Part shown: in pieces, positions 514 through 51,016 of the stretch
Position numbering within the stretch: the first letter of the stretch is position 1
Layout: every line of letters starts with the position of its first letter
Assembly (NCBI GenBank): GCA_004194705.1
Contig: SADC01001113.1
Coordinates: forward strand, 62,001-126,000
Origin: Ditylenchus dipsaci
Taxonomy: Eukaryota; Nematoda; Chromadorea; Rhabditida; Anguinidae
DNA length: 64,000 nt
Direction of reading: 5' to 3'
The notes under the pieces: model-generated
The model's database searches: none
Told to the model about the DNA's origin: nothing
What the model saw: only the letters and a program-made list of their open reading frames with translations
Made by a program: the position numbers and the translations under genes

Positions 514-1224
514 AGCGCAAAATATCGCGCGCACGTACTGCTGCCTGCCAATGAAATCCTTATAATAAAACCAAAAAGTTTGCGCACTTGTTGTGACACT
601 TCCTTCCTTTTCGAGTCAAGACTAAATTTTTCTTGAACGAACATTCATCGGTAGAGTAGATTATGACCGGATAATGAAAAATCGGTAATATTCTTTTTCA
701 ACAAGCATGAAATTGCTGTATCATTGTTCTCGTTTATCTTGTAGGCACTCTTTTGATTGGTTAACTTGAAATTAAGCCCGATTTTAGAGCTCCAATTGAT
801 TATAGGCTCCAATGTCCGAGCAAACTTGCCCTGGTCTAATTCAGAGGGGCGACGGTGAATTCATCCAAAGGTGAATTCATCCAATTTTTGTCTTGACACG
901 TTTTCTTTAAATACTTTTCGTTCCGCCTGTTCTACTGACATTACAACCAATTTAAACGGCTGTACGAAGTTTCGTAACAGGACAATTTCGTAACAGCGAA
1001 TTTTCGTAACAGCGAATTTTCGTAACAGCGAACTTTCGTAACAAATTTTTTTCGTAACAAACATTTTCGTAACAAACGTTTTCGTAACAAACGTTTTTCG
1101 TAACAGCGCATTTTCGTAACGGCGAATTTTCGTAACAAACTTTTTCGTAACAGCAATTTTTCGTAAGAAACTTCTCGTATACTTTACTTATTTTTGTAAT
1201 CCACCCTCAATCTTCCCTATATGT

Positions 1225-1560
1225 TCTTAGTGGTCTTATTTACCTTAATGGTCTTTAATGGTCACGATCCGCCCTGAATGGTCCTGATCATCACTCAACA
1301 GTCTTGATCCATAATCAACTGTCCTAATCGGCAACCGGACAAAACAGGTTTTTAAAAGTATTTGTCGCGCGACAAAAACGGTTTTTTTATCGGTCAATTC
1401 GTGCGAACAGCCGAATTGACCGATAAAAAAACCGTTTTTGTCGCGCGACAAATACTTTTAAAAACCTGTTTTGTCCGGTCGCCGTCCTAATCAACTCTCA
1501 ATGCCTGATCCACGCTTAAAAGTTCTGATCTCGCCTTCAATGTCTAAAATCTTTCAGATA
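1225..1560. repeat. Degenerate tandem repeat with a perfect hairpin
   Basis: Imperfect repeats of an ATGGTCCTGATC-like unit surround a perfect hairpin at about 1331-1483, whose arms of about 70 bp contain GTCGCGCGACAAAAACGG. The repeat resumes on both sides of the hairpin, so the hairpin is a separate insertion. Open frames across it are by-products of symmetry. Confidence 0.7.
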
Positions 1561-2166
1561 TTGTCTTCGCTTATGTGGGTGTCCAGTACGTGAAAATTTT
1601 TCCTGCTCTCAAAGCTATCTGAATCTTGGATATGTTAAATAACTCTATGAATAACATATCTGAAATTTGGGTGATTTTGAGCACTGTGAATTTTTTTTGG
1701 CTTTTACACCCAAGTAAACAAGAGGAGACCCACTCGGTCGGAATATATCAATAGAAACTTATAACTTATTAAAAACCAAGCTGAAGATAACTAGGGAAGA
1801 TTCCGTCAAAACACGTCCAACAACTAACCTTCCTCATCAGATAATCTGATTTAACTTCGACTTTTCACAACACTATTTACCACGCTTACTCAAACGGAAT
1901 TCTTTATTGAAAACAAGAAAGCACTAGAGAGTGCTTTTGGAGTAACAATAACGAAAGGCGTAAACAATAGAGAGTTACGAGAAATTCTGGATTTCAGCAG
2001 CGATTCACCCATCACAGCCGTCGAGAATTCTGCCTTGGCGCTTCAGAGCATAGACCATATCCATGGCGGTGACCTAAAGTAGAGACGATGAACCAATGAG
2101 ATGAGAAACTTTGGGTGAGTAATATGCGGAAGTAACCGTTGTAATTAGCAACAGAACCTTGGAATA

Positions 2167-2597
2167 CAGTCGATTCTCGATTTAAGGACACCCCCAAAAG
2201 TTCGTTCTCCAGCTGGGTCCGACACTTTTTTTAGCTCGATTTTCGAAGCGTTTTTTTTAAATTCTGTTTTGACAGTCTAGTCGTAAATATAGCAAGGATG
2301 CCGATTTTGCCGATCGTTTTTCAAAATCCAAAAACTTTTTCTTCTAAAAAAGCAAAACCTCGATTTAAGGACAGGCTTTTTTCTAAAATCCCTGTCCTTA
2401 AATGGAGGGTTTGCTTTTTTAGAAGAAAAAGTTTTTGGATTTTGAAAACGATCGGCAAAATCGACATCATTGCGATGTTTGCGACCAGACTGTCAAAACA
2501 GAATTTTAAGAAAGCTTCGAAAATCGAGTTAAAAGAAGTGTCGGACCCAGCTGGGAAACGAACTTTTTGGGGGTGTCTTTAAATCGAGAGTCCACTG
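2167..2597. mobile_element. pogo-like MITE with TA target duplication
   Basis: Ends are CAGTCGATTCTCGATTTAAG and the complement of CAGTGGACTCTCGATTTAAA, each preceded or followed by TA, as in the pogo/Tigger group of Tc1/mariner elements. The inverted arms are about 190 bp. The same end sequence starts several other MITEs here with different interiors. It is inserted inside arrayed element 1 and is therefore younger than it. Confidence 0.8.
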
Positions 2598-2781
2598 TAT
2601 TGCCAAACTTCAGGGGTCCTGGCAATTGTGGAGGCATAACAACGTGAAATATAAGTGAAAACTGAAAAAAAGGATCTTTCAGGTCAAGAAATGCCTGAGA
2701 CCCTTAGGGTTCTGGACTGCAAAACTTCAGATTATCCTAGTTGTATTCGAAAGAGGTTATTAAATAAGGCAAATAAACATA

Positions 2782-3014
2782 CTGTCTTGCGCTTGGTGCG
2801 CTGCGAGTTTCTTCGTAGATGAAGCCAGAGATGCGCTTGACTCCAGCTCGACCGGCAAGACGACGGATAGCAGGCTTTTTGACCCCCAGAATGTTGTCGC
2901 GCAGAATCTAGAAGACAAACATCAGGATCAGTGGTGAAGAAAATGATAAGTCAATTACCTTGCGATGACGCTTGGATCGACCTTGCCGAGTCCTTTCCAC
3001 GTTGCCACTTCCTG
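2782..3014 (-). pseudogene. Histone H4 pseudogene with an intron and internal deletion
   Basis: Histone H4 packs DNA in the nucleosome core. The upstream exon (about 2959-3014) reads a degenerate N-tail ending SKRHRK at a GTAATT donor, with one base missing before it. The next exon (2782-2907) reads [20 protein letters not shown], then [15 protein letters not shown], then jumps in another frame to RTKRKT, so about twenty residues of the histone fold are deleted. A GTATGT donor follows and the C-terminal third is missing. It lies within arrayed element 1, beside that element's right array, as a captured fragment would. Canonical metazoan H4 genes lack introns, so the intron is odd. It cannot make a functional histone. 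Confidence 0.8.
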
Positions 3015-3540
3015 GAATAAGCTGTTACGGAAATTTTGTTACGAAAATTCGCTGTTACGAAAATGTTTGTTACGAAATTTCGCTGTTACGAAAATGTTTG
3101 TTACGAAATTTCGCTGTTACGAAAATGTTTGTTACGAAATTTCGCTGTTACGAAAATGTTCGTTACGAAAATGTTCGTTACGAAAATGTTTGTTACGAAA
3201 ATGTTTGTTACGAAAATGTTGTTACGAAAATGCTTGTTACGAAAATTCGCTGTTACGAAATTGTCCTGTTACGAAACTTCGTACAGCCATTTAAACATTA
3301 CAACCGGTGCCATGGCATTCGTCCAAAATTCAGTCCGTCCAAAGTCAATTCGTCCAAAAGTCAATTCGTCAAAATGCATTTCGTCCAAATGCAATTCGTC
3401 CAAAATGCAGTTCGTCCAAAATTCAATTCGTCCAAATTTTTATTTCAAGTCAAAAATTTCACGAGAGAACCATTTCAACGATGACAGCATAACTTCAACG
3501 CTCAGAAACCTGTGCCAGAGTGGCCATAGCCAAAATAAAT

Positions 3541-3835
3541 CTGGTTTGGGGTTTACTAAATGGGGACAGTCGTTTTTTGCGAAAAAAAGATATAGCGAAC
3601 CAGAATCGCAATGAGATCGGGTGAATCGCTCAGAATACTACCGAACATCCGAAGCTATCCTAAAACCACTGCTTAGGACGGTTCGCAGTAGTTTGCAATG
3701 TTCGGTGGTCAGATTCTGAGCGATTCATCCCGTCACAGTGCGATTTTGATTAGCTCGATCGTTTTTTCGCAAAAAATTGTCCACCTTCAGTAACCCCAAA
3801 ACCGTTTTCATTGGTTTTTCATCTCTGGACATGAG
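3541..3835. repeat. Hairpin core K1
   Basis: This imperfect inverted repeat starts GGTTTACTAAATGGGGAC and contains AATCGCTCAGAATACTACCG and its mirror. The same plan (GGTTTACTAAA, GATCAGAATTC-like, TCGCTCAGAATTCC, mirrored) occurs in the middle of two elements with entirely different terminal arrays, near 41555-41815 (copied at 45935-46190) and 55190-55445. It is non-coding. Confidence 0.7.
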
Positions 3836-4269
3836 GTTTTGGACTCGAGGTAAATAGATCTCAGGTGAATTGTCTCTTAATAGGTTACAGGTCCGCAGTG
3901 AAGTCCGCAGTGAGAACTGTGGACTGAACCAACTAAACTAAATCGCTTCAAATCACTCTAATGAAACTCAAATCACCCCGAACCAACCAAAATCATTTAA
4001 TGACCCCAACTACACCCTAAACAAGTCAGTTAGAATAGTTAAACTTTTTTGTGGTGATTTGAACAGGATCAAGATATTTGGGGTGGTTTGGGCTCGTTTT
4101 GGCTAATACAAAATATCTTTCTCCTTCCTTCTCGAATATTATTTGTCGGAAATCATGCATCACACCCATCTAATTTGACAGAATGTCATTTACAGTTAAA
4201 AGCACAAAACCAAACAACGAAATTTATTGCCAAATAACGAGAAACAGACAATTTAATATCATCGAGATA

Positions 4270-5018
4270 CTAGACACTAGCCTGCACAGGCGGCTCATAG
4301 GCATCTGGACAATAGGTAATCTCGCTATTTCCGGAAGTGATGGCACCAGCAGTTCGCATTAATTTCCATCAGCTTGCACATTTCGAACTTCGGCTTCTTG
4401 ATGATCTTAAGCTTGCGAATATAGACGCCTTGGAGAGGATAGATTCGGAAACACGACTCCTCAATGTCCTTGCCAATGGAATCCGGAATCAGCTTGTTGC
4501 ACATTGCCGAAGGTCACTCGAAGCAACCTAAAATGTCAAATCAGTCTTATGACGACGAAAGAAATAAAAAGACCTCTTTCTGCATGATTTCGACCATTTT
4601 GGCACGAATAGCGCGAACATGCGATGACTTAGCATAGCTGAAACAAGGGCAATACCTTCGGAAATAACTTGAGGAATACTAACCTGGTCTTCTTCACTTG
4701 GTGATCAGATGATAGCTTGAGGCTTACTCATAGATGCGCCCCTTCAGGAAGTCACTGGCGATCTCTGAACGAATCGATTAAAGGGTGAAATGGAAATGCA
4801 ATTTACTTGTTCCCTGAGACTTGTTGACGAATGTCTTCCCAATGGTGCGGTTCGTGAACATAGCCGGAGCTTTGACATCGTGCCACTCCCTAAAGAAAGC
4901 AAGAAGCATAAATAAGAAAACCTTCCTGCCGCATAAAAGATTACCTTCAGGTGAACGGATCAACCACCTTCTTCTCAAATCCCTCCTTGCTCATCTTCTT
5001 ATTTTTGCCGATAGCCAT
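4270..5018 (-). pseudogene. Ribosomal protein eS1 (RPS3A) pseudogene
   Basis: eS1 is a small-subunit ribosomal protein. The start reads [20 protein letters not shown] from 5018 on the minus strand. The next exon reads [20 protein letters not shown], and further pieces read IASDFLKGRIYE, SYAKSSHVRAIRAKMVEIMQ and [20 protein letters not shown]. The end, DAYEPPVQASV, matches the family C-terminus. Introns of about 40-50 nt with AG acceptors survive, so this is a copy of genomic DNA and not of mRNA. Several central exons are missing, an in-frame stop follows GRIYE, and the C-terminal part is shifted by an indel. It fills arrayed element 2, which implies capture and later decay. Confidence 0.88.
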
Positions 5019-5471
5019 GCTTGCTTTCAACTGCTAAAAACCAATTTATTTACCAATAGAAACTATGAATCGAAAATATGAAAGCATAAATAAAAACAAT
5101 AATCGGATGAATGTCTCAATCAAATCTTGATCAAAAGGGTGTTGAAGTCGTAGTCCAAAAGACGTGGTACTTAGGTGACTTAAGGAGAAACGGTCAGGTG
5201 ATATTATTTGGTAGTGCCTACATATCGGTACGCAGGTGGAAGTGGATCAATAGAGATACTGCCGGACTTCATCATGTTGAAATTTGGACGAATTGCATTT
5301 TGGACGAAATGCATTTTGGACGAATTGGCTTTTGGACGAACTGACTTTTGGACGAATTGAATTTTGGACGAATTGTCTTTGGACGAATTGAATTTTGGAC
5401 GAACTATATTTTGGACGAACTGACTTTGGACGAACTGAATTTTGGACGAAATGCCATGGCACCATTACAAC

Positions 5472-6248
5472 CAGTCTTGTAAATCGAAAAATTTCGCCGC
5501 CGAGCGACTCCATTTTTTTGGCCGCCGAGCGCCGACGGCGGCGAAAAACTTCGCCCGACGCCGGCATCATAATATTCAAAATTTATACGCGTTTTTGCCG
5601 CTCTGGTGCCAAAATAAGAGGTTGTTGAAAATTAATTTTTTTATTTGATGTCACATCAGCCAGGCGCGATTTGGCTGCTCCTTGGCTGCTCAGGCTGCTC
5701 CTTTCAGCCTGAGTTTCAACTCGTTCAGCTTGCTCTCTGGTTCAAGCTTTGGGATCTGCGCATTGATTGTCATCTTGATGTTTTCGAGCCATTCAGTGAA
5801 GTCTTCGTCTTCCATAAATACACATCGAATTTGAATACACTTTTTGCTGAAATTCATAAGCGCTTTTCTCTTCAATAATTTTGGGCCGGTCCTTCCTTTG
5901 TGTCCAATAGTGTTAAAGGTAAAAATGAAAATAATAAAATAAGCTTTCCACAGCAGAAGTTTCCCTGGGAATTGGTAAAAGATCCATAGCCATCTTATAG
6001 ATTTGAGGATATGCCTAAAAGTATATTTGTAGTATGTTATTAACATATCTCATTATTTTCTTCCTAAAACAGCATCGTATCCTTATTTATTTTCTTTGGA
6101 AAGTGCCGTCGGCGCCGAGCGCCGGCTTCATTTTTTTCGCCACCGGCGCCGAGCGCCGGCTATATTTTTTTCGCCGCCGCCGTCGGCGCCGAGCGCCGGG
6201 TCGGCGGCGAAAAATCGCCGTCGGGCGCCGGCGCTGTTTACAAGACTG
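5472..6248. mobile_element. Arrayed-TIR element 3, GC-rich arrays, hAT-like ends
   Basis: Ends are CAGTCTTGTAAA and its complement, immediately flanked by ATTACAAC on both sides (5464-5471 and 6249-6256). An 8-bp duplication with a CAG-type tip fits hAT transposons by established rules. Inside each end is a GC-rich array of a GGCGCCGAGCGCCGG-type unit, in strong contrast with the AT-rich surroundings. The centre holds a gag-like reading frame on the minus strand. Confidence 0.8.
5690..5815 (-). pseudogene. Retrotransposon gag-like fragment
   Basis: A 41-codon frame starts MEDEDFTEWLENIKM and ends NELKLRLKGAA before a TGA stop. The tryptophan near the start followed by a helical stretch and the L-x-L-R-L-K-G-A-A ending resembles the N-terminal core of LTR-retrotransposon Gag proteins. 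Only this piece is present; no protease or polymerase lies nearby. It is the sole coding-like sequence in the element around it, so it may be captured. Family assignment rests on this short motif. Confidence 0.4.
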
Positions 6249-6417
6249 ATTACAACCAATACAACCAAACGACCTAACGATTTTCATTAAGATAACAACA
6301 AATGTTTGGTTAATTTTTTATTTTTTAAAAAATTTGATGAATTCACCGTTGGATGAATTCACCTTGAAAGAATTCACCTTGGATGAATTCACCTTGGATG
6401 AATTCACCTAGAGCCAA

Positions 6418-38272: not shown

Positions 38273-41200
38273 GTAGTGCCACTTGTGTCATCTACTTCCT
38301 GAAAAATTCAATATACAGTCGACTCTCGATTTTAAGTCCCCCTAAAAGTTCATTCCCAAGCTGGGTCCGACACGATTAGCCCAGTTTTTAAAGTGTTTCA
38401 TCAGTTTTTTTCTAACCCTCATTTGAGCACCCTCATTCGGGTACCAATTTCCAATATGCTAATTTTCAAACGCAAAGGTGTGCCTCTTCAGATTTTGTTC
38501 GTAAAACAGTTTTTAAAGAATTATTAGGTCTCAGAGCGGGCCTGTGCGAGGGCCGCTACGGCCCGGGCCGTGAAGCCCCATAAACAATCTTAATCATTCA
38601 TGATCGATCATTAAAGCCCGGATGGGGCCCAAAAAAGTTAAGCTCTGGGCTGGCCGGGCCCAAAAAATATATCCGTGCCGGGCCGTAAAAAAGTGGGCCA
38701 CTGCACAGGCTTGCTTCAGGGGGGATAGAAAAAGCACTATGTTGCAATATGTAAGGTGTTTTGAGGAAGCGTACCAGCCCGTTCCAGAAAATAAGGGCAG
38801 GGACCATCATTTTTCGAATACTCCTATTTTTCATTCGCCCTGCATCAAATCTTTGTCCTTATACTACTTTTGAAAACTAGGCAGAAAACTGAAAAAATAT
38901 ATATCAGAACGCTGGTTACAGACTTTTTTCTTGACTACTTATAACGGTAAAACATTTTTAAAGAATTAGTAAAGTTTAGGGTGAGTACGAATACCGCTGG
39001 TATCCAGCTTTAACCTAAGTGCCCAATGGTAGCCGCACCTCCGCACTCCGCACACCCGCGCAAATCTTCACTCTCGAATCTCGACCACAAACTTAATTCG
39101 AGAGAGCCGACTTCTCGTCACACTTCAAAAAGTACTAATAACGACTCTCACTACCAAAGACTCGAGAAAAAAAATTACTTTTTATTCTTATCTCGAGACA
39201 AAACATTTTGTGGCATTCAAAATTTCGCGATGACTGACATACAGACAACTCTTTTTTCGCTTATATATAAGATTACGAAAAAAAATTAATGATTCTTAAA
39301 TGATTCTCGCGTAGGATTTAGTATACAAAAGCCATTTAGTTCTCGGTTTAAACATGCTACATGATCATGACACATAAGACATTGAACATGAGACATATAG
39401 AAAAACATGTACGACGCGACATAGGAGACATTTGACATCTCACATTATACGATCCACATCACGCAGGTGCACAGGACACACAGACAATACAGACGTATAT
39501 TTGAGACGTTTTTTTGCATATTTGAGACACAACCATGAATCACAGTATCGTCCAAGCACTTTGGACTGAACTATGATCCATACTTGTATTTAAGAAGTTT
39601 TAAGTTAAGATATTTTAAGTTAAGAAATTTTCCAAAAAAACCGAAAGACTCAAGTCCAAAAGATTCAATCCGAAATTGAAATTCAATCTAAGTACTTAGA
39701 TGATTCACAATAAGTCGAGAAAAAATGAGAGTCTTACTGATATTATTGATTCAGAGTTTCATTCGGATTCTTGGATGATTTACAAAGTCAGAAGTAATAC
39801 ATGAATTCAATCATGAAGATTTTTCGAAAGAGTCAACTGCTCATATTTCCTTGAGAAAAAAATAGAAAAACATTTAGACAGTGGTTTATCTATTTCCACG
39901 TGAAATTTGCCGAAAAATGTATTTTTTTCTGAGTTGACTGACGTTTATCGAATTTCGGAATTCATCCTAGAAAAAACTTATGGCCCTCAAAATGTATAAA
40001 TTTCTCGACCCTACTTGGATATGGGTGATTTTGGTGGTCCCAAAACTCAATTTTTTTATTTACTAGAACTCAAAAATAATGTCTTTTTCGAGCTTCTAAG
40101 GGGATTTTAGGTCGACATAGGGTGTTTGGAAACACTTTGAAAAAAGTTGATTTGGGGGGGGGGGTGGTATATCTAAGTAGCGCCAATTTCTCGATACATC
40201 CAGTACTAGAGCTGACAATTGTGCTTCAGGGTGGGTGTTATGCTAAAGGCACATTTGCTAAAAAAAAATTTTGCTAAAGGCACAAAAGCTTTGTATGGTT
40301 TTGTTCTGGTGAAATTCTTCTCAGTGATGCTCATAGGCGTTACACCCTCAGTAGTTACACTATCAGTGATCTTCATCGAACCTCAGTGGTCCCAATCAGG
40401 GGTATAGACATTTCCCCAAACTGAAACTTTTTTGAAACAGATTTTTAAGTTTTTTTTTCGAAATTTTTTAGATTGTGTCTGAACCATCCTAAACCATCCC
40501 AGATTTTTTAGGCCATCCGTGAATTACATCATACCATCCCGACTGCTGAAACCACCCTGAGAAAAACCCAAGACCATGAATCGAGGTAAATTTTCCATGG
40601 AAAGTGGAAAATTTTCCATGAAATAATTTTTACATGAAAAGTCGATTTAAGTCAATTTTTCTGTGCCGCGACCTCAGTAATCAGACTACAAATACGTAAT
40701 CGGTGAAAATAAGTATGAATAAAAAATCCTATACAGTCGACTCTCCCAATAACGAACCCCCTGAATAACGAACTCTCTCAATAACGAACACCTGGAGCCG
40801 GTCCGCAGGGGGTTCGTTATTGGGAGAGTCGACTTGTATACTAAAAGAGAGTTTGTGTCCGTCCGATTTTGTCTCAAAAATGTCTCGAAATTGTCGTTTA
40901 AAAGTTGGTCTCAAGAGGATTTCATTGCAGCGAGAGTTTTGTCGCATACTCATTATTATTTCTTGCGCATGTTGAGCAGTTGGCTCTCTGAGATAATTTC
41001 GTGATCGAGTCTCATGTTTTTCATGGTTGTTTTATGAATCATCCAGATGCTTGGATTAAATTTTTATTTTTCAAAGAATTTTTTGTTCTCGAGCCTTTTT
41101 AAATACTTTTGAAAATTTCTTGATTCAAATATGATTCATACTACAGTCCAAGTGCTTTAATAATGGTAAATACTTGAAGTACTTGGACTGTTCTATGGTT

Positions 41201-42059
41201 CATAATTAAGTCTCAAATTGAAGAGTAAATAATTAAAGATATTTGAGGGTAAGACTGATCATGATGTGGTCTCATTGTTGTTTTCATTTTTTCCTAATTT
41301 TTACTGGACAATACTTTTTTCTCCGCCTAATTTACTTTTTTTTCCGCCTAAAACACTTTTTTCTCCGCCTAATTTTTTTTCCGCCTAATTCACTTCTTTT
41401 TCCGCCTAATTTACTTCTTTTTCCGCCTAATTTACTCTTTTTTCCGCCTAATTTTGATTTTCTACACGAAATCAACCATTTTTAAAAAATTTTGTGTGAA
41501 ATTCAAGGGCGGGCAAAGACCAGATGGCTGGAGACCCACCCCGGAATGGCCAAAAGGCCAAAATTATTGGTTTTTGGGGGTTTACTGAAGGGGGAGTAAA
41601 CTTTTTGAGAAAAATCGATTAAGCGGATCATATTTCGGGTCCGATGGGCTTAATCGCTCAGAATTCCAGGTTTATGGTGGTTTCGAGTGGTTCAGGGTGG
41701 AGTTGTGGGCGATTAAGCCGATCGGATCCGAAATCTGATCCGCTCAATCGATTTTTCTCAAAAAGTTTACTCCCCCTTTAGTAAACCCCCAAAAAACCAA
41801 TAATTTTGGCCTTTTGGCCATTACAGAGTGGGTTTCCAGCCATCTGGTCTTTGCCCACCCTTGAATTTCACACAAAATTTTTTAAAAATGGTTGATTTCG
41901 TGCCGATAATCAAAATTAGTCGGAAAAAAGAGTAAATTAGGCGGAAAAAAAGTATTTTAGTCGGAGAAAAAAGTGTTTTAGTCGGAAATGAAATTAGTCG
42001 GAAAAAAAAAATTTTAGTCGGAAAAAAAAGTGTTTTAGTCGGAGAAAAAAGTATTGTCC
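38273..42059. repeat. Left arm of giant inverted repeat
   Basis: This arm is an almost base-for-base inverted copy of 45708-50904, apart from a segment of about 1.4 kb present only in the other arm. It starts GTAGTGCCACTTGTGTCATC. Inside are a pogo-like tip (TACAGTCGACTCTCG), GC-rich CGGGCC words near 38540-38720, a small TAACGAAC hairpin at 40735-40845 and an arrayed element at its inner end. Arm identity far exceeds that of other repeats here, so it is recent or kept alike by gene conversion. Confidence 0.93.
41306..42059. mobile_element. Arrayed-TIR element (TTTTTCCGCCTAA arrays), left-arm copy
   Basis: GGACAATAC tips face each other and lead into arrays of TTTTTTCCGCCTAATTTACT (outer) and its inverse (inner). 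The middle is hairpin core K1. In this copy the inner array has mostly CCGACTAA units where the partner has CCGCCTAA. ATTTTTACT precedes the outer tip, but no matching duplication follows the inner tip, which joins directly to unrelated DNA. Confidence 0.88.
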
Positions 42060-45707: not shown

Positions 45708-46444
45708 GGACAATACTTTTTTCTCCGCCTAATTCATTTCTTTTTCCGCCTAAAACACTTTTTTTCTCCGCCTAATTTTTTTTTCGCCTAATTTACTTCT
45801 TTTTCCGCCTAATTTACTCTTTTTTCCGACTAATTTTGATTATCGGCACGAAATCAACCATTTTTAAAAAATTTTGTGTGAAATTCAAGGGTGGGCAAAG
45901 ACCAGATGGCTGGAAACCCACTCTGTAATGGCCAAAAGGCCAAAATTATTGGTTTTTTGGGGGTTTACTAAAGGGGGAGTAAACTTTTTGAGAAAAATCG
46001 ATTGAGCGGATCAGATTTCGGATCCGATCGGCTTAATCGCCCACAACTCCACCCTGAACCACTCGAAACCACCATAAACCTGGAATTCTGAGCGATTAAG
46101 CCCATCGGACCCGAAATATGATCCGCTTAATCGATTTTTCTCAAAAAGTTTACTCCCCCTTCAGTAAACCCCCAAAAAACCAATAATTTTGGCCTTTTGG
46201 CCATTCCGGGGTGGGTCTCCAGCCATCTGGTCTTTGCCCGCCCTTGAATTTCACACAAAATTTTTTAAAAATGGTTGATTTCGTGTAGAAAATCAAAATT
46301 AGGCGGAAAAAAGAGTAAATTAGGCGGAAAAAGAAGTAAATTAGGCGGAAAAAGAAGTGAATTAGGCGGAAAAAAAATTAGGCGGAGAAAAAAGTGTTTT
46401 AGGCGGAAAAAAAAGTAAATTAGGCGGAGAAAAAAGTATTGTCC
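45708..46444. mobile_element. Arrayed-TIR element (TTTTTCCGCCTAA arrays), right-arm copy
   Basis: GGACAATAC and GTATTGTCC tips are flanked by AGTAAAAAT on both sides (45699-45707 and 46445-46453), a perfect 9-bp duplication. This copy is therefore at its original insertion site. Core K1 is at the centre. Confidence 0.93.
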
Positions 46445-49400
46445 AGTAAAAATTAGGAAAAAATGAAAACAACAATGAGACCACATCATGATCAGTCTTA
46501 CCCTCAAATATCTTTAATTATTTACTCTTCAATTTGAGACTTAATTATGAACCATAGAACAGTCCAAGTACTTCAAGTATTTACCATTATTAAAGCACTT
46601 GGACTGTAGTATGAATCATATTTGAATCAAGAAATTTTCAAAAGTATTTAAAAAGGCTCGAGAACAAAAAATTCTTTGAAAAATAAAAATTTAATCCAAG
46701 CATCTGGATGATTCATAAAACAACCATGAAAAACATGAGACTCGATCACGAAATTATCTCAGAGAGCCAACTGCTCAACATGCGCAAGAAATAATAATGA
46801 GTATGCGACAAAACTCTCGCTGCAATGAAATCCTCTTGAGACCAACTTTTAAACGACAATTTCGAGACATTTTTGAGACAAAATCGGACGGACACAAACT
46901 CTCTTTTAGTATACAAGTCGACTCTCCCAATAACGAACCCCCTGCGGACCGGCTCCAGGTGTTCGTTATTGAGAGAGTTCGTTATTCAGGGGGTTCGTTA
47001 TTGGGAGAGTCGACTGTATAGGATTTTTTATTCATACTTATTTTCACCGATTACGTATTTGTAGTCTGATTACTGAGGTCGCGGCACAGAAAAATTGACT
47101 TAAATCGACTTTTCATGTAAAAATTATTTCATGGAAAATTTTCCACTTTCCATGGAAAATTTACCTCGATTCATGGTCTTGGGTTTTTCTCAGGGTGGTT
47201 TCAGCAGTCGGGATGGTATGATGTAATTCACGGATGGCCTAAAAAATCTGGGATGGTTTAGGATGGTTCAGACACAATCTAAAAAATTTCGAAAAAAAAA
47301 CTTAAAAATCTGTTTCAAAAAAGTTTCAGTTTGGGGAAATGTCTATACCCCTGATTGGGACCACTGAGGTTCGATGAAGATCACTGATAGTGTAACTACT
47401 GAGGGTGTAACGCCTATGAGCATCACTGAGAAGAATTTCACCAGAACAAAACCATACAAAGCTTTTGTGCCTTTAGCAAAATTTTTTTTAGCAAATGTGC
47501 CTTTAGCATAACACCCACCCTGAAGCACAATTGTCAGCTCTAGTACTGGATGTATCGAGAAATTGGCGCTACTTAGATATACCACCCCCCCCCCAAATCA
47601 ACTTTTTTCAAAGTGTTTCCAAACACCCTATGTCGACCTAAAATCCCCTTAGAAGCTCGAAAAAGACATTATTTTTGAGTTCTAGTAAATAAAAAAATTG
47701 AGTTTTGGGACCACCCAAAATCACCCATATCCAAGTAGGGTCGAGAAATTTATACATTTTGAGGGGCCATAAGTTTTTTCTAGGATGAATTCCGAAATTC
47801 GATAAACGTCAGTCAACTCAGAAAAAAATACATTTTTCGGCAAATTTCACGTGGAAATAGATAAACCACTGTCTAAATGTTTTTCTATTTTTTTCTCAAG
47901 GAAATATGAGCAGTTGACTCTTTCGAAAAATCTTCATGATTGAATTCATGTATTACTTCTGACTTTGTAAATCATCCAAGAATCCGAATGAAACTCTGAA
48001 TCAATAATATCAGTAAGACTCTCATTTTTTCTCGACTTATTGTGAATCATCTAAGTACTTAGATTGAATTTCAATTTCGGATTGAATCTTTTGGACTTGA
48101 GTCTTTCGGTTTTTTTGGAAAATTTCTTAACTTAAAATATCTTAACTTAAAACTTCTTAAATACAAGTATGGATCATAGTTCAGTCCAAAGTGCTTGGAC
48201 GATACTGTGATTCATGGTTGTGTCTCAAATATGCAAAAAAACGTCTCAAATATACGTCTGTATTGTCTGTGTGTCCTGTGCACCTGCGTGATGTGGATCG
48301 TATAATGTGAGATGTCAAATGTCTCCTATGTCGCGTCGTACATGTTTTTCTATATGTCTCATGTTCAATGTCTTATGTGTCATGATCATGTAGCATGTTT
48401 AAACCGAGAACTAAATGGCTTTTGTATACTAAATCCTACGCGAGAATCATTTAAGAATCATTAATTTTTTTTCGTAATCTTATATATAAGCGAAAAAAGA
48501 GTTGTCTGTATGTCAGTCATCGCGAAATTTTGAATGCCACAAAATGTTTTGTCTCGAGATAAGAATAAAAAGTAATTTTTTTTCTCGAGTCTTTGGTAGT
48601 GAGAGTCGTTATTAGTACTTTTTGAAGTGTGACGAGAAGTCGGCTCTCTCGAATTAAGTTTGTGGTCGAGATTCAGTAAGACGGTCATGCTTTTTTCTCG
48701 AATTTTTGTGAATTATCCAAGTACTTGGATTGAGTTTCAATATTATATTGAATATTTTGAACTCGAGTCTTTTGATTTTTTTGAAATTGTCTTAACTTTA
48801 GTATGAATCATAGTTTTTGTTTCGTGTGTAGTATTCGTGTGTAGTGCGTATCTTACGTTATATTTGCTCATTTTTAAATCATAGGAAATTCATTAATTAT
48901 GTCTTGAGAATATGTTTGAAATTGAATCTTTTCGCGAGTCTTCTTCATAGAGAATTTTCGTGGTATTCTCATTATCGCTTCTTGAGTATCTGGAGCAGTT
49001 CAGAAGACGCTGTTACAAGTTTCGCCACAGGAAAAAAGACAAACGCATTTTTAAATCATGCACAACATAAATATGCCTTTATCAATCTCCACACTCACGT
49101 CTTGAAAAGTTAGCAAATGGAGTAATTCTGTGAGTCTCGGAAAGGACCTCATAGCTCACGGCTCATGTTTCGGTTATGTGTGTTTATGAATCCCGTAACA
49201 CAAAAAGACGCTTTTATGAATGTCACCAGAGAGTACAAAGCGAACGCTTTTGTGAATCTCGCGCCAGAAATAGATGCTTTGTCAGCTGTGTGAAGAGTGG
49301 ATAAGTAATTGAGAGTGACGGTATGTGATTTTAGTTATCTCAGATTTGATTTCATAGATCTTAAGACCTTAAAATTTTTTTGAAGGTGAAATAATCGAAA

Positions 49401-49725
49401 AACTACAAAAAATTGACTAAATTTTTTTTAGGCCATCCTGCTTGATATCCACCTGAACCATGGGTTCCTATCCTAGGTTTCATAGTTTGAGTCACCAAAA
49501 TTACAGTTTTGGTATTGTCAAACCATGTTCAGCGTAAAATTTTGGATTAGAAATCAGGGTTTACAATACCATATGAAAAACTGATATTTTCGAGATTTCT
49601 AGGCAAATGCTCCCTTAGAATAAGTATCGACCCCATTATAGGTGTTTTGGCTAGTGAAATCACTATCTTGGTATTAACAAACTGTGTTCAGCACATGTTT
49701 TTAGGTGAGATAGGGTTGTTTTTTG

Positions 49726-49897
49726 TAGGCTTGGCAACGGGACGGGAATCCCATGGGAATCCCGCAATCCCAATCCCGAAAATTTTGAAATCCCGATCCC
49801 GAATCGCGCTCGTCCAAAAGCCAAATCCCGAATCCCGATGCCGAAAATTTTGAAAATCCCAATCTCGAATACTCCGGAATACAATCTGCCAAGCCTA
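49726..49897. mobile_element. Small hAT-like MITE (AATCCCGAATCCCG array)
   Basis: TAGGCTTGGCA and TGCCAAGCCTA are inverted, flanked by GTTTTTTG and GTTTTCTG (7 of 8 identical). The interior is an array of ATCCCGAATCCCGA words. It lies in the segment unique to the right palindrome arm. Confidence 0.8.
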
Positions 49898-51016
49898 GTT
49901 TTCTGTCTTACTTTGAAAAATTTTCAATTTTCCGAAAATTTTTGATCGTAGCCTTAGTCTTAAAAAGTTTCAGTTAGGATCCACAAGCGGAAAGTTGTAC
50001 TTAAAAATAATTTGAGCGCCGAAAAGAGCATAAGAAAATGAAACAACGATGATGCGCTGCACTCCGAATGAAAAAAGGCGCTCCGAAGGCGCCGCACCGC
50101 GGGAGTGAAGATTTGCGCGGGTGTGCGGAGTGCGGAGGTGCGGCTACCATTGGGCACTTAGGTTAAAGCTGGATACCAGCGGTATTCGTACTCACCCTAA
50201 ACTTTACTAATTCTTTAAAAAATGTTTTACCGTTATAAGTAGTCAAGAAAAAAGTCTGTAACCAGCGTTCTGATATATATTTTTTCAGTTTCTGCCTAGT
50301 TTTCAAAAGTAGTATAAGGACAAAGATTTGATGCAGGGCGAATGAAAAATAGGAGTATTCGAAAAATGATGGTCCCTGCCCTTATTTTCTGGAACGGGCT
50401 GGTACGCTTCCTCAAAACACCTTACATATTGCAACATAGTGCTTTTTCTATCCCCCCTGAAGCAAGCCTGTGCAGTGGCCCACTTTTTTACGGCCCGGCA
50501 CGGATATATTTTTTGGGCCCGGCCCAGCCCAGAGCTTAACTTTTTTTGGGCCCCATCCGGGCTTTAATGATCGATCATGAATGATTAAGATTGTTTATGG
50601 GGCTTCACGGCCCGGGCCGTAGCGGCCCTCGCACAGGCCCGCTCTGAGACCTAATAATTCTTTAAAAACTGTTTTACGAACAAAATCTGAAGAGGCACAC
50701 CTTTGCGTTTGAAAATTAGCATATTGGAAATTGGTACCCGAATGAGGGTGCTCAAATGAGGGTTAGAAAAAACTGATGAAACACTTTAAAAACTGGGCTA
50801 ATCGTGTCGGACCCAGCTTGGGAATGAACTTTTAGGGGGACTTAAAATCGAGAGTCGACTGTATATTGAATTTTTCAGGAAGTAGATGACACAAGTGGCA
50901 CTACAGTCAAGTCTCGATTTAACGAAACCCCGATTTAACGAAACTCTTGATTTAACGAACCTTTTTTTGGTGGCTATTTGGCCACCGATTAAATAAAATG
51001 ACTAAAATAAGCATAA

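Follow-up and report, generated by a model that had tools for sequence, protein, structure and literature searches.

Three unrelated transposable elements landed within 17 bases inside a small element of the Ditylenchus dipsaci genome, and two of them used the same nine-base word

The Mutator/Foldback element Tm1 of root-knot nematodes carries composite terminal inverted repeats with variable numbers of ~14-bp tandem units, and its target site duplications (TSDs) are 8-10 bp long, mostly 9 bp, with no clear consensus (45/53 elements); its ends bear the motifs CGGTTAA/CCTACCC and GGA, its array unit is CGATTCAGTATCGC, one class includes a histone-hairpin sequence, and a nested element has been described (PMC3169594). 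The foldback element Tetris has repeats of ~220 bp (PMC4079207), and Galileo and FARE are also mentioned as foldback elements (PMC4079207, PMC3169594). Turmoil-1 of C. elegans is a nematode transposon reported to capture gene pieces (PMC2572040), and a 2025 review states that a TSD allows a later insertion at the same site, which leads to double or multiple insertions (PMC12628747). In this study, we analysed a 64-kb stretch of Ditylenchus dipsaci DNA (hereafter the window; G000:C1106:62001-126000, from a 227-Mb assembly of 1359 contigs) in which three elements, E1, E2 and E3, lie in series within a fourth, E0. The results showed that E1, E2 and E3 landed within 17 bases inside E0, and that only E2 and E3 used the same word, the 9-bp ATTACAACC.

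A sequence-only reading of the window had proposed that each of the three insertions duplicated this one 9-bp target next to the previous element. Our word search returned ATTACAACC at all four positions named there (940, 3297, 5464 and 6249), always on the + strand, with no other occurrence in the window on either strand; shuffled windows held a mean of 0.60 matches, and 4 matches were reached in 1/100 shuffles. The array listing likewise agreed that the end arrays of E1, E2 and E3 are mutually unrelated, and GGTGAATTCATCC units on both sides of the series confirmed the fourth arrayed element around them. However, the words do not mark the outer limits and the junctions of the series exactly, as had been claimed: E1 itself starts 9 bp past the first of them and stops 8 bp short of the second. 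The parts of the nest are as follows (window coordinates; strand is given where a feature has one):

838..846: AATTCAGAG, probable left TSD of E0, as read from this one copy
847..6415: E0, the outer element with GGTGAATTCATCC arrays, delimited by its arrays and empty relatives; outer ends tentative
940..948: ATTACAACC, first native E0 word and not an E1 TSD; present in the uninterrupted copies L074, L075 and L076
950..957: ATTTAAAC, left E1 TSD, from the E1 flanks
958..3288: E1, with terminal inverted repeats of TTCGTAACAGCG arrays, from termini and family TSDs
3289..3296: ATTTAAAC, right E1 TSD, from the E1 flanks
3297..3305: ATTACAACC, second native E0 word and left E2 TSD, from uninterrupted copies and E2 family TSDs
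3306..5463: E2, with TTTGGACGAA arrays and S3a gene fragments, from family termini, TSDs and cargo searches
5464..5472: ATTACAACC, right 9-bp E2 TSD, whose first 8 bases are the left E3 TSD and whose base 5472 is the first base of E3, from family TSDs
5472..6248: E3, putatively hAT-like, with CAGTCTTGTAAA termini, subterminal repeats rich in GC, and TSDs of 8 bp, from termini and family TSDs
6249..6256: ATTACAAC, right E3 TSD, followed by a C at 6257 that is native E0, from family TSDs and CAATACAACC in L075 and L076
6416-6424: AATTCAGGG, probable right TSD partner of E0 with 1 mismatch against AATTCAGAG, as read from this one copy

We joined the two E0 halves in silico, searched the genome with this query, which gave 40 matches, and fetched the five best continuous copies (L073-L077). 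The empty E0 was ~278 bp long, and 14/40 matches ran continuously across the insertion place (including one on contig C931 that stopped at query position 115 and two that stopped at 136). Three of the five fetched empty copies (L074, L075 and L076) read ATTACAACC-(AATTTAAAC or AATTAAAAC)-ATTACAACC, with the words 18 bp apart, so that the native double word was observed directly. After the second word, L075 continued with AATACAACCAAACGACC, matching the window sequence past E3, and the native continuation CAATACAACC was present in L075 and L076. In L073, ATTACAACC was followed by AATACAACC, while L077 held the word once only. A pattern search for the E0 site, which is blind to copies interrupted within the first word, found 12 copies including that of the window, and the other 11 were all continuous across the site in the joined-halves search. 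When the search started from the right half of E0, with 40 of 270 candidates scored, none of the other copies was interrupted at the word. The 24/40 joined-halves matches that ended at query position ~78 were considered as further insertions at the word and rejected after 11 of them had been read (L062-L072); these share the left half of E0 with a different middle (ATTACAACCAACCAATTTATACAA...) and look like longer E0 relatives, not interrupted copies.

E1 ends in GGCTGTACGAAG at 958 and 3288; its left flank reads AATTTAAAC and its right flank ATTTAAAC, which makes ATTTAAAC its 8-bp duplication. For the E1 family, 30 of 45 genome matches were fetched, and L048, L050 and L057 were dropped as second views of L033, L045 and L035. 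Nine distinct two-ended loci, the window included, showed five exact 8-bp TSDs, one exact 9-bp TSD, one 8-bp TSD with one mismatch, and two loci without any. E1 inserted in the E0 spacer between the two native words and not in ATTACAACC. Both this duplication of E1 and the empty sites refute the proposal of three insertions at one target as far as E1 is concerned.

The inverted ends of E2, GGTGCCATGGCATT(T)CGTCC, lie at 3306 and 5463. A pattern search allowing at most 2 mismatches found 328 such termini genome-wide (161 forward and 167 reverse), which corresponds to about 160 copies provided that most have two ends. We read the window copy together with the 20 best-scoring of 39 other listed places (from 40 of 417 candidates scored). 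Twenty of these 21 copies were two-ended, with 13 exact 9-bp TSDs, three exact 8-bp TSDs, one with one mismatch, and three without. The TSD words vary between copies, indicating that ATTACAACC is a genuine E2 target duplication rather than terminus sequence. The sequence-only reading had named a word belonging to every terminus as what would overturn it, and E2 is not such a case. With a 23-base pattern of target plus terminus, no other E2 end had a target within 2 mismatches of ATTACAACC, and with 3 mismatches permitted in all, the nearest other E2 targets were 3 positions off, at 4 places. By eye, one E2 copy (L027, about 5610-5720) is inserted in an end region of a small palindromic element.

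Terminal inverted repeats of short tandem units, a foldback/Mutator-like trait, are present in both E1 and E2, and TSDs of 8-10 bp, mostly 9 bp and without consensus, are present in E2. Both elements thus resemble Tm1 in their arrayed inverted ends, and E2 also in its TSDs; in contrast, the E1 family has mostly 8-bp TSDs, the end motifs and the unit CGATTCAGTATCGC of Tm1 were not matched by eye, and the E1 and E2 units measure 15-16 bp (PMC3169594). No MULE (Mutator-like element) or Phantom transposase was found here in the L098 frames queried. Tetris is similar in its tandem repeats within long inverted ends, its 8-10 bp duplications and its variable middle, but its repeats are ~220 bp (PMC4079207), and E1 and E2 are known here from non-autonomous copies. 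By these likenesses, E1 and E2 would be foldback/MULE-like.

For E3, we read 20 fetched stretches and the window, and 14 rows had both ends (L084, L085, L088, L090, L091, L093 and L094 had fewer than two). Among these 14 rows, nine had exact 8-bp TSDs, three had an 8-bp TSD with 1 mismatch (L081-L083, with the same flanks and apparently one duplicated locus), one had none (L097), and one was uninformative (L092, whose left flank lay outside the fetched stretch). The family TSD is 8 bp, and therefore the duplication of E3 in the window is ATTACAAC, not the 9-bp word; the last letter of the 5464 word already belongs to E3, as its first base, and the last letter of the 6249 word belongs to native E0. 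The nine exact TSDs had T at position 2 in 8/9 and A at position 7 in 6/9. The hAT pattern is an 8-bp TSD whose target has T second and A seventh, and E3 shares it, together with a terminus that reads CAG..., with hAT-like miniature elements. TSD length, terminus and target pattern thus suggest that E3 is hAT-like. Its open frame had no Pfam match.

We then compared ATTACAAC with the targets that could be read at 15 other E3 loci (L081-L083 and L090/L091 each counted once). Two of the 15 were within 1 mismatch of it on either strand: L090 and L091, apparently the two ends of one copy fetched apart, have GTTGTAAC on both sides (other strand), and L094 has ATTACAAG, read at one end only. Among the 8-mers of the window, 0.09% of all and 0.8% of those of the form nTnnnnAn come as close. 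With 2/15 against 0.8%, the E3 family shows a mild preference for targets resembling ATTACAAC, which helps to account for the insertion of E3 in one of the words.

These findings account for the word count. E0 had two native words, and E2 and E3 made one duplication each, therefore four words are seen; none came from E1. The claim that the same 9-bp target was duplicated each time holds for E2 (9 bp), holds for E3 as to the target, though over 8 bp, and fails for E1, whose target was ATTTAAAC. We propose that E0, a small foldback-type element, held ATTACAACC-AATTTAAAC-ATTACAACC-AATACAACC near its middle, and that three unrelated non-autonomous DNA transposons then inserted there by ordinary cut-and-paste. 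E1 duplicated ATTTAAAC in the spacer (8 bp), E2 the second ATTACAACC (9 bp), and E3 ATTACAAC (8 bp) in one word copy beside E2. In the other order, E2 would have entered a word copy beside E3; because either order yields identical letters, the order of E2 and E3 is not readable from the sequence. E2 and E3 share one target, and a two-element series exists in which either used the target of the other.

A model in which all three elements entered the 9-bp ATTACAACC one after another through strong sequence-specific targeting would fit four exact words in nearly the right places. It is nevertheless highly improbable: two of the words pre-exist in E0, the duplication of E1 is another sequence, so the same word does not surround each element, that of E3 is 8 bp, and E2 targets vary, with the next nearest only as close as stated above. 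With two words already in E0 and E1 on another target, a strong site-targeting system is not needed. A series made by mis-joined repeats in the assembly would likewise suit a repeat-rich region whose junctions were found only once: a genome search for the E1-to-E2 junction with its target letters gave a single place, and so did one for the E2-E3 junction (exact pattern, against 328 E2 termini). Every junction, however, directly shows a family terminus and a complete TSD, and the outer E0 halves rejoin to a sequence found continuous elsewhere, which leaves such an artefact scarcely credible.

The sharing of one target by E2 and E3 could reflect attraction or coincidence. If the centre of E0 or a freshly duplicated site next to an element end were a preferred target of several transposases (a palindrome, or bent or nucleosome-free AT-rich DNA), the series would have been built by attraction. 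Three insertions in 17 bp of the 278-bp E0 (P ~0.003 under random placement) and the two E3 loci close to ATTACAAC speak for this, as does the review of double insertions, where the second element uses the duplication of the first; that account concerns elements of the same type, whereas E2 and E3 are two unrelated families (PMC12628747). The literature searched, mostly titles and abstract openings, offered no case of three unrelated elements that share a target, which is no proof of absence. On the other side, the E0 copies continuous across the site include all 11 others found by pattern, the right-half search gave no second broken copy, no third TSD copy was recognised at a neighbour's far end beside 15 other E2 copies (flanks of 0.9-3.4 kb), and exact patterns with 0 mismatches permitted found no second E2-E3 junction and no E2-E2 junction genome-wide against the same 328 termini. 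Attraction is thus unlikely as the explanation of the series. The sequence-only reading had suggested strong sequence-specific targeting, or that an element's flank is itself the target; no recurrence was found for either in these searches, and the mild E3 preference speaks in favour of targeting. That fresh TSDs beside element ends, or the AT-rich middle repeat of E0, attract unrelated superfamilies beyond what density and sequence preference provide is distinctly doubtful.

The series is very probably best read as dense nesting of an ordinary kind among foldback/MULE-like and hAT-like elements, and the shared target of E2 and E3 would be a coincidence, to which the mild preference of E3 contributed, in a genome very dense in transposons. 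The window is dense in inverted-repeat elements with tandem-array ends (119 array rows, overlapping rows counted), and uniform insertion, with the 23 inverted-repeat pairs of the window scaled up, predicts ~29 exact target re-uses genome-wide. The window was also chosen because the pattern was noticed, which counts for coincidence. Several points weigh against this reading. The same uniform model gives just ~0.008 exact re-uses per 64-kb window, and its 23 pairs were hand-picked, so that some may not be single elements. Three random insertions in the 278-bp E0 fall within 9 bp with P ~0.003, a clustering that is mildly unusual unless it was singled out after the fact. An extra in-line TSD copy was found at 3/15 other E2 copies against a summed expectation of ~0.7; that of L017 is located within a local tandem repeat, whereas those of L024 and L027 showed, by eye, no far end of a neighbouring element. 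The junction patterns tolerated no mismatch, and no transposase was identified for E1, E2 or E3 (L098 frames queried; no autonomous E3 relative sought).

We also analysed the interiors of E1 and E2, which contain the following features:

1330..1483: palindromic insertion within E1, missing from sibling copies
2803..2907, - strand: histone H4 fragment, captured in E1 (PDB sequence search, 6.3e-13)
4328..4990, - strand: ribosomal protein S3a (eS1) gene fragments, captured in E2 (Pfam PF01015; PDB chains)

The H4 piece, which had no Pfam match and was recognised through the PDB sequence search, recurs in 15 further loci representing 11 distinct places. Of the S3a pieces, one passed the curated cut-off of PF01015 (1e-08) and one fell short of it (4.3e-05), and PDB 40S S3a/eS1 chains matched down to 2.3e-18. 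By eye, the pieces are separated by an intron-like GT...AG sequence. One S3a piece or more was present in 20/20 of the fetched best-scoring E2 stretches and in L099 and was not found in L098, and the S3a pieces probably reflect a single capture followed by amplification. To judge from these matches, the S3a and H4 pieces are captured and multiplied host gene fragments. Both E1 (H4) and E2 (S3a) therefore hold a host gene fragment between inverted ends that has multiplied with the element, as in Pack-MULEs and Turmoil-1, where host gene pieces in inverted-repeat elements are copied along (PMC2572040); the superfamily of E1 and E2 is putative.

Two observations concern relatives of these elements. 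Among the fetched E1 relatives, 10 loci at 8 distinct places lack the ~155-bp palindromic element found in E1, which has copies elsewhere. L098 (G000:C95:49860-54940), the longest E2 relative fetched, is a 5-kb element with E2 ends and without an S3a piece; its interior might hold remains of an autonomous copy, and 3 of its 6 open frames of at least 80 residues were queried, with no Pfam match and no transposase. Apart from the nest, the window contains a very large inverted repeat (38273-41972 and 45776-50904), whose arms, 0.8 and 2.9 kb long, are 99.3 and 99.6% identical.

Overall, the striking pattern of one target used three times dissolves once empty sites and family TSD lengths are checked. 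In this transposon-dense eukaryotic genome, foldback-type families appear to multiply pieces of host genes (H4 and S3a), and in the same genome two unrelated families used one target.

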